From Polyangium fumosum (GTDB lineage Bacteria; Myxococcota_A; Polyangia; Polyangiales; Polyangiaceae), in NCBI RefSeq assembly GCF_005144585.1, contig NZ_SSMQ01000007.1, forward strand, positions 186,001 through 250,000: a DNA stretch of 64,000 nucleotides, written 5' to 3'. Each line of letters begins with the position of its first letter. The first letter of the stretch is position 1. The position numbers and the translations under genes were made by a program. The notes under the pieces are model-generated. The model searched no databases and was not told the DNA's origin. It saw only the letters and a list, made by a program, of their open reading frames with translations. Below, in pieces: positions 23,971-28,621 of this stretch.

Positions 23971-24326
23971 TGCTTCCTCCTCAGCGAATGCTCGAGGTTT
24001 TTGCCGAGAACGAGTCTCGCCTTGCGTGTGTCCAAGTGCATGCTGCGGGCCATGGAGGCTGTGCAGGTCGGACCCTGCACGTCCAGACGGGCGGCCCGGA
24101 CTCGCGCCGTGCCGCGAGGGCGGACAGCAGGCGCGCGAGGCGCAGCATCGCGCGGCGAAGTCGGGGCGCCGCTGGCTGTCAAGCCTTTGTTGTTGCCGCC
24201 CGAGGCGCTTCGGGCAGAGAGTAGAGGAGCGACGACGAAGGCCTCGGGGAGGGCGCGGATGCTGGGCGGCGGATCCGCGCGGGGGTGAAGGCCGTAGTTG
24301 GATCACCAAGGATCGAGGAGCAGACG
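23971..24326. other. Divergent intergenic region upstream of the RiPP locus
   Basis: 356 bp between the beta-barrel gene (minus) and the precursor gene (plus). A small hairpin with GCCCGA/TCGGGC arms occurs at 24198-24215. It must hold the promoter of the MNIO locus, but I see no convincing -35/-10 pair or metal-regulator operator, and no gene. Confidence 0.4.
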
Positions 24327-24713
24327 ATGAACGCGAAGAGCATTTACGAGACCCTCGCGGCGCTCGGCGCGAGCGCGATGATCGCAGGTTGTGCCGGGAC
24401 GCAGGAGCCCGTGAAAGCCGCCGAGGAGCCGCAGGCCGAGGCCCCCGCACAGACCGCGACGGAGAAGAAGGACGAGTCGACGGCAGGGGCGGAGGCGGCA
24501 GGCACGACGAACGCGGCCGCCGCGCCCGCGGAAGCCCCGGCAGCGGCGGCGGCTCCGGCCCCGGCGGCGGCGGCTCCCGCAGCGACGCCCGCGCCCGCGG
24601 CCGCGCCGGCTCCGGCGACGACGGCGAAGGCGGCGCCGAAGGCCGCTCCGAAGAAGGCCGCGGCGCCCAAGAAGGGCGCGGAGGCGGCCTGCGGCGAAGG
24701 ATCCTGCGGCTAA
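24327..24713 (+). CDS. Lipoprotein-type RiPP precursor with C-terminal CGEGSCG core
   Basis: A 128-residue protein. The signal has the lipobox MIAGC, then comes a ~95-residue linker almost wholly of Ala, Pro, Glu and Lys, and a C-terminus AACGEGSCG with the only two other cysteines. EG-x-CG cores are the substrate sites of MNIO enzymes in HvfA/bufferin-type precursors, where Cys is turned into oxazolone- or thiooxazole-type copper ligands. The MNIO gene starts four bases after this stop, which strongly supports precursor status. ATG at 24327 follows GAGGAG. Unlike classical family members with several EGKCG repeats, this one carries a single short core on a lipid-anchored spacer. Predicted role: envelope copper capture. 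Confidence 0.75.
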   Translation: MNAKSIYETLAALGASAMIAGCAGTQEPVKAAEEPQAEAPAQTATEKKDESTAGAEAAGTTNAAAAPAEAPAAAAAPAPAAAAPAATPAPAAAPAPATTAKAAPKAAPKKAAAPKKGAEAACGEGSCG

Positions 24714-24716
24714 CGG

Positions 24717-25592
24717 GTGGCTCGCGGGTCGACGATCACGGGGGTCGGGCTCGGGCTCCGGTTCGATTTCCTCGACGACGTGCTCGCGCGGGTCGAGGCG
24801 GACGCGTCGCTCGGGCCCGCGCGGTTTTTCGAGGTCGCGCCGGAAAACTACATGCGCCGGGGCGGGTTCGTCCCGGCGGCGCTCGAGCGGATCGCGGCGC
24901 GATTTCCGCTGCTCTCGCACGGGCTCTCGATGTCCCTCGGCGGGCTCGATCCCTTCGATGACGACTACATGCGCGAGCTCGCTGCCTTCACGCGGCGGTT
25001 CGGCGTGCCGTTTCACTCGGATCACCTGTGTTTTTCGGGGTTCGGGGGGCGCATGGCGCACGAGCTCTTGCCGCTGCCGCAGACGCGGGGGGCGGCGGCG
25101 TACGTGGCCGCGCGGGCGCGCGAAGCCGAGGATCGGCTCGGGTTGCCGATGGTGGTCGAGAACATCACGCGGTACGTCGTGCCCGGCGCGCCGGAGCTCG
25201 CGGAGGCGGCGTTCGTCGCGGAGGTGCTCGATCGTTCGGGGTCAAAACTTCTGCTCGACGTGAACAACGTGTACGTAAACGCGATCAACGACGGCACGGA
25301 TCCGCTCGTGTTCCTCGCGGAGATCCCGCTCGATCGGGTCGCGGCGATCCACGTGGCGGGGCACGAAAAGCGCGCCGGGACGGACCTCGTGATCGATACC
25401 CACGGCGCCGACGTGCTCGGCGAGGTGCTGTCGCTGCTTACGTGGACGATCGAGCGGACAGGGCCCGTGCCCGTGGTGCTGGAGCGGGATCATGCGATCC
25501 CGCCGCTCGATGAGCTGCTGCGGGAGCTGTCACGGGTCGAAGCGGCCTACCAGGCAGGGCTCGCGGCGCGGGAGGCGCAGGCGCGTGGCTGA
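24717..25592 (+). CDS. DUF692 family multinuclear iron oxidase (MNIO; BufB/HvfB-like)
   Basis: A 291-residue TIM-barrel enzyme of the DUF692 family, which binds two or three irons and oxidatively modifies Cys residues in ribosomal peptides. Diagnostic stretches: [62 protein letters not shown] and VLERD, containing the His, Glu, Asp and Asn metal ligands of the family. GTG start at 24717, four bases after the precursor stop. It overlaps the DUF2063 gene by eight bases. It should act on the CGEGSCG core before export. Confidence 0.9.
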
Positions 25593-26382
25593 AGAAGAGG
25601 AGGGGCGGGCCGCGATCGCCGAGGTCGCGGCGACGTTCGCAGCGGTCGTACAAGGGCCGCCGGCGGAGACGCGCCTCGGCGTGTACAGATCGCTCGTGCG
25701 CCGCGGCATCGTGGGGGCCGTGCGGGCGCAGATGCCGCGCACGGCGGCAGCACTCGGGGCGCGGTTCGAGGCGACGGTGGACCTTTGGCTCGACGAGGCG
25801 CTGCCGCGCTCGCCGTACCTGCGTGACGCTGCGGCCGAGCTCGTCGGCTGGGCTTCCGCGCAATGGGCCGCGGATCCGGCCGTTCCGCCCTGGATTCCGG
25901 ATCTTTCGCGTCATGAGGTCGCGCGGTTCGAGGTCGCAGCGGCGGCCTCGGCCGGTGCGCCGAGTGGCCTGCCGCTCGCGCTCGATCGGGCGGTCTCGTT
26001 TGGCGGCGCGGCCCGGGTCGTTCGGTACACGTGGGCCGTACACCGCTTGCCAGAGGATACGTCGGGCGAGCCGCAAGAAGAGCCCACCGCCCTGCTCCTG
26101 TACCGGGACGGGGCGCACGAGGTCCGGTGCCTCGTGCTCTCGACGCTCGCAGCCGCGATCCTCACGCGGCTCCTCGAAGGCGCGCAGCTCGGGGAGGCGG
26201 TGACGGCGGCATGCGCGGCGCTCGGGGAGCCGCTTGGCGAGGCGGTGTTGCGAGGCACGGCGGAGGTGCTCGCGGACCTCGGGGAGCGCGGGGTGGTCCT
26301 CGGCGCGGTCGAGCAAGGAAATCACGATCCCGGCACGCACGCGGCGGGCGAGCGCGGTATAGTCGCCCCCGAACGAACATGA
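25585..26382 (+). CDS. DUF2063 family partner protein (BufC/HvfC-like)
   Basis: A 265-residue soluble protein. The N-terminal half has the DUF2063 pattern: [44 protein letters not shown]. In bufferin and HvfABC loci this protein recruits the precursor leader to the DUF692 enzyme. GTG at 25585 follows GGAGG and overlaps the MNIO stop by eight bases, so the two are co-translated. The C-terminal half contains the beta strands and acidic patches expected of the second domain. A TATAGT at 26358, inside its 3' end, may be the -10 box of the next gene. Confidence 0.82.
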
Positions 26383-26404: not shown

Positions 26405-28621
26405 ATGACGACGAGCTCGCAACAGGACCCGCTCGGCATCACGGGGACGATCCTCGCCGAGAAATACCGGATCGACGCGCTCATCGGCGAGGGTGGCTTC
26501 AGCGTCGTCTACCGCGCCGAGCACCTCATCTGGCAGCAGCCGGTCGCGATCAAATGCTTCCGCATCCTCGCGCAAGCGCCCGAGAACAAACGCGACGAGC
26601 TGCTCGACGGGTTCATCCAGGAAGGCCGGCTGCTCGCGAGCCTGTCGAGCCGATCGGCGGCGATCGTGCAGGCGCGCGACATCGGCAAGTTCACGACCGC
26701 GGACGGGATGTGGATCCCGTACATGGTGCTCGAGTGGCTCGAAGGAAAGACGCTCGATCACGTGCTCTTCGTGGAGCGCGTGAGCGGCGCGAAGCCACGC
26801 GAGATCCACGAGGCGCTCGCGTTGCTCGAGCCCGTCGCCGTGGCGCTCGAAATCGCGCACGCGAAGAACATCGCGCACCGCGACATCAAGCCCGCGAACA
26901 TCTTCGTCATCGGGGATCCGCGCGGGGCCTCGCCGTTCACGAAGATCCTCGACTTCGGCATCGCGAAGGTGATGGCCGATCACGCGGCGGCGACGGCAGA
27001 GCTCGCGCAGACGGGCAAGGAGATCACCGCGTTCACGCCGAACTATGGGGCGCCCGAGCAGTTCAGCCGATCGTACGGCGCGACGGGCCCGTGGACCGAC
27101 GTGTTCGCGATGGCGCTCATCATGGTCGAGGTGCTGCGCGGCGGGATCCCGGCGTTCGAAGGCGAGGACTTCATCCAGTTCGCCGTCGCGAGCCGTGATC
27201 CGATGCGCAGGCCGACGCCGCGCGCGTTCGGCGTGCAGGTCTCGCCCGAGGTCGAGGCCGTGTTCGAGAAGGCGCTCGCGGTCGCGCCGACGGACAGGTA
27301 CCCGTCGATGGGCCGCTTCTGGGCCGCGCTGCACGAGGCCGTGTTCCCGGACATCGCGTGGAACCCGGGCACGACGAGCGGCGTGTCGTCGTCGATCACA
27401 TCGTCGCCCGGCGGACGATCGGCGTCACGCGCGAGCATGCCGGGCGCGCTGCAGGAGACGCTCCCGCGCCCGAGCAGCGGCACCGCGGTGATGGGATCAC
27501 CCTCGCCGACAGGGGCGCAGGGCACGCAGCAACGTACGACGCAGGACCCGCCGGGATCGTTGGCGACGCCGCCGGCCGCGCCGATGCCGACGGGCAACAC
27601 GCCTGCCGCGGATCAGGGCAAGGGGCTCATGGCGTTCGCGGCGATCGCTGCGATCGCGCTGCTCGGCGGCAGCTTCGCCGCGTACAAGATGTTCACGAAG
27701 CCCTCGGGTGGAACGCCGACCGCGGCCTCGTCGGCGCCGGTGGCGAGCGCGGCGCCGAGCGCGAATTCGTCAGCCGCGATCGCGGCGGCGCGGCCGACGG
27801 AGTGCCCGGCGGGGATGGTGCTCGTGCCGGGCGGCAAGTTCTTCATGGGCTCGGACGAAGCGTCGTTCAAGCTGTGGCAACCGGCGCACAAGGTCATCCT
27901 CGACACGTTCTGCGTCGACCTGCACGAGGTGACGGCGGCCGAGTACAAGGAGTGCTCGGATCAGGGCGAATGCAAGCGCCCGGAGGTCGCGCCGAACTGG
28001 CCGAAGACGGCCGGGAGCACGGACGAGGAGCACGAGAAAAAGCGCGAGTCGTACTCGGAGTTCTGCACGTTCGGCAAGGCGGGCCGCGAGAACCATCCGG
28101 CCAACTGCGTGAGCTGGTACCAGGCCGACGGGTACTGCAAGTTCCGCAAAAAGCGCCTGCCGACGGAGGCGGAGTGGGAGTACGCGGCGCGCGGCTCCGA
28201 CGGCCGCAAGTTCCCTTGGGGCGCGGACGAGGCCGCGGCCGGGCACATGAACGCGGGCGGCAAGGAGTGGGCGGCGTGGGAGAAGGCGCAAGGCCTCAAG
28301 CTCACGGGCACGCTCTACGATATCGACGACGGCTACCCGGGCACGGCGCCCGTCGGCAGCTTCCCGCAGGGCAAGACGCGCTTCGGCGCGGACGACTTCG
28401 TGGGCAACGTGTGGGAGTGGACCGCGGACTGGTACGAGACCTACAAGGCCGACGAAGAGCAGATCAACCCGAAGGGGGCGCCCGCAGGGGACCGGAAGGC
28501 GATCCGCGGCGGCGGCTTCAACGGCGGCGTGCAGCAGTGGCTCAATCCGGCGTTCCGGTTCCACCAGGTGCCGGACGCGACGACGCCGGTGATCGGGTTC
28601 CGCTGCGTGATGAACCTTTGA
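26405..28621 (+). CDS. Membrane Ser/Thr kinase fused to a formylglycine-enzyme-like (SUMF1) domain
   Basis: A 738-residue protein. Residues ~20-310 are a kinase domain with GEGGFSVVY, K50, HRD (158-160) and DFG (183-185); ~320-400 a Pro/Ser-rich linker; ~408-427 one membrane helix; ~465-738 an extracytoplasmic SUMF1/FGE-type domain with MVLVPGGKFFMGS, NCVSWYQADGYC, RLPTEAEWEYAARG, VGNVWEWTADWY and IRGGGFNGG. The Cys pair of true formylglycine-generating enzymes, expected after RGG.F, is absent (GGFNGGVQQWLNPAFR), so this domain is probably a ligand-binding scaffold. The type is frequent in myxobacteria. Its 3' end overlaps the PAP2 gene antisense by 80 bp. Confidence 0.88.
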   Translation: MTTSSQQDPLGITGTILAEKYRIDALIGEGGFSVVYRAEHLIWQQPVAIKCFRILAQAPENKRDELLDGFIQEGRLLASLSSRSAAIVQARDIGKFTTADGMWIPYMVLEWLEGKTLDHVLFVERVSGAKPREIHEALALLEPVAVALEIAHAKNIAHRDIKPANIFVIGDPRGASPFTKILDFGIAKVMADHAAATAELAQTGKEITAFTPNYGAPEQFSRSYGATGPWTDVFAMALIMVEVLRGGIPAFEGEDFIQFAVASRDPMRRPTPRAFGVQVSPEVEAVFEKALAVAPTDRYPSMGRFWAALHEAVFPDIAWNPGTTSGVSSSITSSPGGRSASRASMPGALQETLPRPSSGTAVMGSPSPTGAQGTQQRTTQDPPGSLATPPAAPMPTGNTPAADQGKGLMAFAAIAAIALLGGSFAAYKMFTKPSGGTPTAASSAPVASAAPSANSSAAIAAARPTECPAGMVLVPGGKFFMGSDEASFKLWQPAHKVILDTFCVDLHEVTAAEYKECSDQGECKRPEVAPNWPKTAGSTDEEHEKKRESYSEFCTFGKAGRENHPANCVSWYQADGYCKFRKKRLPTEAEWEYAARGSDGRKFPWGADEAAAGHMNAGGKEWAAWEKAQGLKLTGTLYDIDDGYPGTAPVGSFPQGKTRFGADDFVGNVWEWTADWYETYKADEEQINPKGAPAGDRKAIRGGGFNGGVQQWLNPAFRFHQVPDATTPVIGFRCVMNL

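Follow-up and report, generated by a model that had tools for sequence, protein, structure and literature searches.

We asked what a small lipoprotein ending in CGEGSCG does next to an MNIO (DUF692) enzyme in the myxobacterium Polyangium fumosum: whether it is modified and anchored to a membrane, what it would bind there, and whether related proteins occur elsewhere in the order. The locus lies in a stretch of 64,000 nt (the window; contig NZ_SSMQ01000007.1, positions 186,001 to 250,000, assembly GCF_005144585.1), which a first-pass annotation made from the DNA letters had read as containing a lipid-anchored, MNIO-modified peptide locus, probably for copper. The reading we favour, and regard as reasonably probable, is that of a lipid-anchored copper peptide system resembling the captophorins.

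Gene order and precursor of the MNIO locus

The 13-Mb host genome encodes a precursor, an MNIO maturase and a PME1-type partner in close succession, followed by a Ser/Thr kinase gene (Table 1). The MNIO gene starts 3 nt past the precursor stop codon and the partner gene overlaps it by 8 nt. The first-pass annotation had placed the enzyme "four bases later", which is the same distance counted from the last base of the stop codon, and had given the same overlap. Its lipoprotein ending in CGEGSCG, its DUF692/MNIO and DUF2063 assignments and its coordinates agreed with our analysis, in which the partner matched the Pfam families DUF2063 (E = 1.8e-9) and NGO1945_C (E = 1.5e-16); with the gene triad and the families in agreement, its view of the locus as a compact MNIO RiPP cluster that includes a lipoprotein precursor stands. 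Against NCBIfam models, the MNIO scored about equally with HvfB (268 bits, cut-off 360) and BufB (258 bits, cut-off 310), both below the cut-off, and the partner reached 103 bits with the HvfC model (cut-off 142). The precursor had no Pfam match at E up to 1 and no NCBIfam model over its cut-off, and a search of solved structures with the partner gave no match at E 0.1. The MNIO locus was present in all six Polyangium genomes searched; the sixth precursor (L040) is cut by a contig end, and the five full-length sequences were compared.

Table 1. Features of the MNIO locus in the window, and the sister gene elsewhere in the same genome
Feature	Position	Strand	Remarks
Shine-Dalgarno-like GAGGAG before the precursor	24315..24320	+	Read from the sequence; ends 6 nt before the ATG
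Precursor gene, 128 aa	24327..24713	+	ATG at 24327, stop codon 24711-24713
Signal peptide MNAKSIYETLAALGASAMIAG	24327..24389	+	Identical in the five full-length Polyangium sequences; SPII by pattern
Lipobox Cys22 (I-A-G-C), predicted lipidation site	24390..24392	+	By pattern
Tether of 99 residues, rich in Ala/Pro/Lys/Glu	24393..24689	+	From the alignment; length and sequence variable beyond the first 19 residues
EAACG-EGSCG double five-residue repeat, C-terminus	24681..24710	+	Shares its first three residues with the tether as given above
MNIO (DUF692) maturase, 291 aa	24717..25592	+	GTG start; PF05114, E = 3.3e-86
PME1-type partner, DUF2063 + NGO1945_C (RRE-type), 265 aa	25585..26382	+	GTG start; Pfam
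Ser/Thr kinase with C-terminal FGE-sulfatase-like domain	26405..28621	+	Pkinase + PF03781; functional link to the MNIO locus putative
Sister lipoprotein of the window genome	L235:4582-5022 (contig C147)		CopA/CopZ-like neighbours

The precursor ends in EAACGEGSCG, of which CGEGSCG makes up residues 122-128. In the alignment of the five full-length Polyangium precursors (that of the window and four others), the first 41 residues and CGEGSC are identical, the tether differs by substitutions and indels, and the last residue is G or A. Conservation of this kind argues for two functional ends, an anchor and a tip, with a spacer between them. By pattern, the anchor is an SPII signal of the type found in DAG-RiPPs, with IAGC after a 21-residue signal, and we are highly confident in the predicted lipidation of Cys22. 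According to the part of PMC3222651 consulted, Lys at position +2 occurs in 8 of 12 inner-membrane lipoproteins of Myxococcus and Ala at position +7 in 7 of 10 extracellular ones. Because the predicted mature start, CAGTQEPV, has neither of these sorting residues, the outer membrane is a weak default for the location of the protein.

The chemistry of the tip can be approached through FonBC, which modifies a two-repeat peptide (-8 Da) and not a one-repeat peptide, accepts EAACGEGACG as well as Thr at position 3, and takes, besides Gly, Ala alone at position 5 (PMC13097082). According to the same source, 5-thiooxazole is what every characterised MNIO-PME1 pair makes, and copper binding is general among the products. 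One position separates the precursor ending from the accepted EAACGEGACG. Since FonBC takes a two-repeat, nearly identical peptide, a thiooxazole on one or both Cys is our best guess for the product, and we consider it very likely that the MNIO modifies the precursor Cys.

Spread of the lipoprotein family and its enzyme pocket

MNIO relatives (E up to 1e-20) were present in 121 of the 144 genomes of the order. We sampled 100 of the listed MNIO places as the main group (L035-L134), to which some genomes contribute more than one and 8 of which have less than 500 bp of upstream sequence. The upstream region was searched for a same-strand ORF ending between -520 and +80 bp from the MNIO start, with a lipobox-type signal and a Cys within the last 22 residues. 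Such a Cys-tailed lipoprotein was found at 67 of the 100 loci, with CxxxxC at 64 and CGxGxC at 61; among 10,680 further ORFs from these stretches, used as a control, 102 had a Cys tail, 8 had CxxxxC and 2 had CGxGxC. A chance motif is ruled out by 61 of 100 loci against 2 of 10,680 control ORFs with CGxGxC. The counts leave aside a similar protein, recognised by eye, that failed the strict lipobox rule at seven loci (L070, L072, L083, L085, L087, L090 and L092), and the match at L134, which looks spurious by eye, is absent from the CGxGxC count. A second scan, of named genomes, kept 80 of 96 relatives, all titled myxobacteria or Delta-/Proteobacteria MAGs; it used family-derived seeds, is therefore biased, and overlaps the 100-locus set. 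The lipoprotein test was passed at 58 of these 80 loci (including L178, whose lipoprotein looks spurious by eye), with CxxxxC at 50 and CGxGxC at 47.

In the 61 CGxGxC precursors of the main group, the residue before the first Cys was S, G or A in 60, the residue before the second Cys was T or S in 59, and the residue after it was G, A or S in 60. The inner glycines are fixed by the test itself and hence are no evidence of conservation. The claim of a "single two-Cys core" held in part: the window precursor does have two core Cys in addition to the lipid Cys, but its tip consists of two repeats, EAACG and EGSCG, and precursors with exactly two Cys beyond the lipid Cys are a minority (21 of 61), the other 40 having 3 to 8.

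In the enzyme, His68, His103, Glu148, Asp181, His212, Asp227, His229, Glu256 and Asp258 were found in 100 of 100 homologues and Asn184 in 99; these residues, whose positions follow from an alignment with 3BWW and 8HCI, are what we take to be the iron site. The specificity or catalytic residues of FonB are Arg15, Arg16, Asp249 and Phe250 (PMC13097082), and their presumed equivalents in the window MNIO, mapped by motif through 3BWW, are R15, F16, D258 and H259. Position 15 was R in all 98 main-group enzymes with a residue there (2 gaps). At position 16 the 100 loci had W (37), Y (18), A (10), F (9) and Arg (2), among others, and at position 259 mostly N (40), Q (24) and H (12), with Phe in 2. 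The main-group enzyme thus appears to be neither of the EGKCG type (RR/F) nor of the Cys-Lys type (D). Loss of Arg16 fits a core that would no longer require Glu, and a pocket unlike that of FonB at the equivalents of Arg16 and Phe250 may mean that the chemistry is different.

A paralogue set of 19 loci, which includes the second and third MNIO of the window genome, had D or E at position 259 in 16 cases. A Cys-tailed lipoprotein stood upstream in 12 of the 19; of these 12, 6 had KN(D/E)C and none had CGxGxC. With D/E at position 259, Cys-tailed lipoproteins and KN(D/E)C motifs, this set resembles Buf2. The second MNIO locus of the window genome (L135, contig C114) has its own lipoprotein precursor, with HKCSGGKCSG.

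The neighbours identified at the window locus (DUF72, kinase-FGE and PAP2 genes and, by eye, an outer-membrane-protein-like gene) included no copper gene. DoxX is usual in bufferin clusters; none was present near the locus, and the closest match on the same contig lies ~127 kb away. Same-strand genes for YceI-like secreted proteins or lipoproteins were seen near 27 of the 100 main-group loci, and genes of a second YceI-like type near 7; they lie mostly ~1.4-1.7 kb upstream of the MNIO (L041-L079 and others). Four proteins scanned from the larger group had Pfam scores of 21-27.5 bits against 23.7, and an ORF near L130 scanned as YceI-like was a different, cupin-like gene. A second family of the order (L077, L081, L097, L104 and other loci) shows conserved synteny of the MNIO locus with genes that, by eye, are rpoC-, acyl-CoA-dehydrogenase- and thymidine-phosphorylase-like.

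Sister lipoproteins in copper islands and alternative readings

We searched for sister genes with the DNA pattern CGxG[ST]C[GA]-stop, which needs the motif at the stop codon and misses relatives with longer tails. As the match counts were barely above those of the reversed-pattern control, the sister genes rest on their reading frame, signal peptide and conservation. Six sister genes with CGEGSCG-stop were found outside the MNIO locus in five of the six Polyangium genomes, one of them in the window genome (Table 1) and the others at loci L237-L241; in G116, a Polyangium with the MNIO locus, the pattern search gave no sister copy. Each of the six reads as a lipoprotein; their signal peptides are similar, and all share one end, HGAQMSCGEGSCG, which closes with MSCGEGSCG. 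None has a relative of the window MNIO within its stretch of 9-9.5 kb.

Four of the sisters share one arrangement, in which a gene for an M61-like lipoprotein, the sister precursor, a CopZ-like HMA gene and a P1B ATPase gene stand together. The P1B ATPase beside the sister of the window genome scored 571 bits with TIGR01511 (cut-off 397) and is one of two ATPases of that genome over the copper-model cut-off; the three remaining copies share 88-94% identity with it. At L240 the sister lies between two multicopper-oxidase-like genes on the same strand, and at L241 it lies 30 bp past a multicopper-oxidase-like gene that itself follows a TolC-like gene (the oxidase and TolC matches are below curated cut-offs). 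CopZ-like genes are present in both stretches. Both multicopper-oxidase-like genes of L240 (3270-4691 and 5237-6148) have lipobox-like signals by eye. Eleven other copper-type regions of Polyangium, chosen among those listed (10 oxidase-like, 1 CopA), had no sister lipoprotein; the sisters sit in copper islands, and the other copper islands inspected are without them. M61-like genes, often divergent from the precursor, also occur near 28 of the 100 MNIO loci. The M61-like lipoprotein beside the window-genome sister (L235:5167-6624) contains HELFH, and such a protein could be a candidate processing protease that trims or releases the tether.

Outside Polyangium, the pattern search of 55 genomes of the family gave 37 places in 25 genomes. 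The 31 places inspected comprised 15 MNIO loci, 2 Polyangium sisters, 13 places without a plausible lipoprotein, and a single enzyme-less relative with a Sec-type signal. This relative (L251, in G112) ends in CGAGSCG and has no lipobox, and no relative of the window MNIO was found within its stretch.

The probable copper role in the first-pass annotation had drawn on knowledge of the family, and it now gains support from the sisters, which lie next to CopA/CopZ-like and multicopper-oxidase-like genes. CopA was found near 1 of the 100 MNIO loci (L068) and near one further named locus (L198), and an HMA protein near 1 of the 100 (L050); this frequency by itself is no evidence for copper, and our estimate rests on the sister genes instead. 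On that basis a copper role of the precursor is likely. Because the sister genes come without an enzyme, the MNIO pair of the window locus is their likely modifier in trans, and we lean towards such an action of the MNIO and its partner, while the sisters may also be unmodified thiol lipoproteins. Hence, the copies in copper islands suggest both a genomic link to copper and one enzyme pair that would serve dispersed substrates. Among the open-access papers listed by our literature searches, neither a myxobacterial CGxGxC lipoprotein nor MNIO precursors in copper islands appeared in a title or the opening of an abstract.

The kinase gene, which starts 22 bp after the partner gene, raises the question of whether the locus serves envelope sensing, with the modified lipoprotein as a ligand or substrate whose state the downstream kinase would sense by way of its FGE-like domain, and with copper serving at most as the signal. 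Catalytic FGEs generally need a CxxxxC pair, and the FGE-like end of the window kinase is without one and so looks like a binding domain. A kinase-FGE homologue of at least 200 bits was found near 25 of the 100 loci and in several genera, and 18 of these homologues follow the partner directly, on its strand and 600-1300 bp past the MNIO end. Near the other 75 loci, some of them on short contigs, there was no such homologue, those elsewhere were upstream in 4 loci and on the other strand in 2, and the six sisters lack such a kinase in the stretches fetched. We regard envelope sensing as quite unlikely. We would call it unlikely, too, that the lipoprotein is an MNIO-made RiPP that handles a different metal or redox stress and has its Cys modified in another way. 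A pocket of neither known type and a locus at which no copper gene was identified would suit that idea; the sister copies in copper islands speak against it, as does the uniform thiooxazole chemistry, generally copper-binding, of the cases described in PMC13097082.

It is far less probable still that the lipoprotein works with plain Cys thiols and that the MNIO acts on something else. This would account for sisters that lack an adjoining maturase, and modification of the precursor is a prediction from sequence, but 61 of the 100 MNIO loci keep the lipoprotein directly upstream, and the active-site residues of the MNIO are invariant. Overall, the lipid-anchored copper peptide system remains the reading that we prefer.

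Proposed mechanism and comparison with known systems

From the observed genes, their order, the signal, the lipobox, the conserved motif, the metal-site residues and the neighbours, we infer modification, lipidation, membrane, copper binding and action in trans as follows. The precursor would be made in the cytoplasm, where the complex of MNIO and partner would oxidise EAACG-EGSCG at one Cys or at both, with 5-thiooxazoles as the most likely products. The Sec and lipoprotein pathways (Lgt, LspA and probably Lnt) would next add lipid to Cys22 and fix the protein in a membrane, probably the outer one, with the Ala/Pro/Lys tether keeping the copper(I) ligand within the periplasm. For the enzyme-less sisters of the CopA/CopZ or multicopper-oxidase islands, modification in trans by this enzyme pair is probable. 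More tentatively, and with more doubt than belief, we propose that one MNIO-partner pair might supply dispersed tethered thiooxazole lipoproteins, with a housekeeping copy in the operon and specialised copies recruited into islands for copper export (CopA/CopZ) and copper oxidation (multicopper oxidase, TolC-like), that the tethered ligand there might hand copper(I) over to its neighbours or buffer it for them, and that the different enzyme pocket might mark a third specificity class of captophorins, with its centre in the myxobacteria.

Lipid tethering, shown recently for two MNIO products, looks usual for one MNIO group across an order with large genomes, and copper islands are now linked to a minimal tip of two repeats. 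With a C-terminal tip one residue off an accepted test peptide, the chemistry, membrane sorting and copper transfer are directly testable, and the enzyme-less copies raise the equally testable idea of one modifying enzyme with several tethered substrates.

Several known systems were rejected as the identity of the locus. The HvfA/EGKCG oxazolin model NF050137 (KCGExKCG) gave 12.9 bits (cut-off 19.5) with a precursor whose repeats are EAACG and EGSCG, and the window MNIO has R15-F16 and H259 where FonB has Arg-Arg and Phe. Buf1 would call for DUF2282, which is absent from the precursor. Buf2, which has secreted products, partly lipoproteins, and copper in common with the window family, needs 6 or 12 conserved Cys, Cys-Lys motifs and an Asp at the specificity site, whereas the window locus has two core Cys and His259. 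The methanobactin enzyme model (MbnB) reached 30.8 bits (cut-off 325), and PADLOC gave no match for the MNIO or the partner, which rejects a listed defence system.

The lipid tether had been regarded as perhaps a new architecture, a claim that published work pre-empts: lipoprotein signals are predicted in ~16% of Buf2 bufferins (PMC12452194), and in 2025 tri-acylation was demonstrated for the enzyme-modified DybA and NedA, the latter an EGKCG oxazolin, in the work that coined the term DAG-RiPP (PMC12636315). DAG-RiPPs share with the window precursor an SPII signal and an MNIO-modified Cys motif, and NedA also has a partner protein; the motifs differ, with three EGKCG in NedA, CPACGMG in DybA and EAACG-EGSCG here. 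The sections of PMC12636315 consulted do not mention copper islands and name myxobacteria solely for a ChrH-like subfamily. They also describe Cluster X, a lipoprotein cluster with a CxxxxC motif. Compared by description, CGEGSC is itself a CxxxxC with a lipobox signal beside an MNIO, and Cluster X or the CxxxxC group may include the present proteins as unnamed entries. The CxxxxC family of Antoine et al. has a signal peptide, CxxxxC, MNIO and DUF2063 in common with ours, and Lactamase_B_2 occurs in 54% of its clusters, with 46% lacking it (PMC12452194). Among the Lactamase_B_2 matches listed (286 in all, in 16 genomes), none lay within 10 kb of an MNIO, and the family was absent among the best 25 of 35 families of 76 neighbour ORFs. 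These listings lend no support to identity with the Lactamase_B_2-linked CxxxxC family, although our proteins may still belong to it, given the 46% that lack the gene.

The captophorins (fontiphorin, oxazolin/HvfA and gonophorin), as described in PMC13097082, combine an MNIO, a PME1 partner and a small secreted Cys precursor. The window locus has an MNIO next to a PME1 partner, with PF05114, DUF2063 and NGO1945_C all over their cut-offs, and a small secreted precursor with two core Cys plus the lipid Cys; its family differs in having Ala, Ser or Thr in place of Lys, two repeats instead of many, a lipid anchor and other specificity residues. Overall, the locus is real and conserved, its tether is known in kind, and the copper role has independent genomic support. 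The CGxGxC lipoprotein family, widespread in the order and paired with an enzyme pocket unlike the EGKCG and Cys-Lys types, is a distinct variant and seems to be new.
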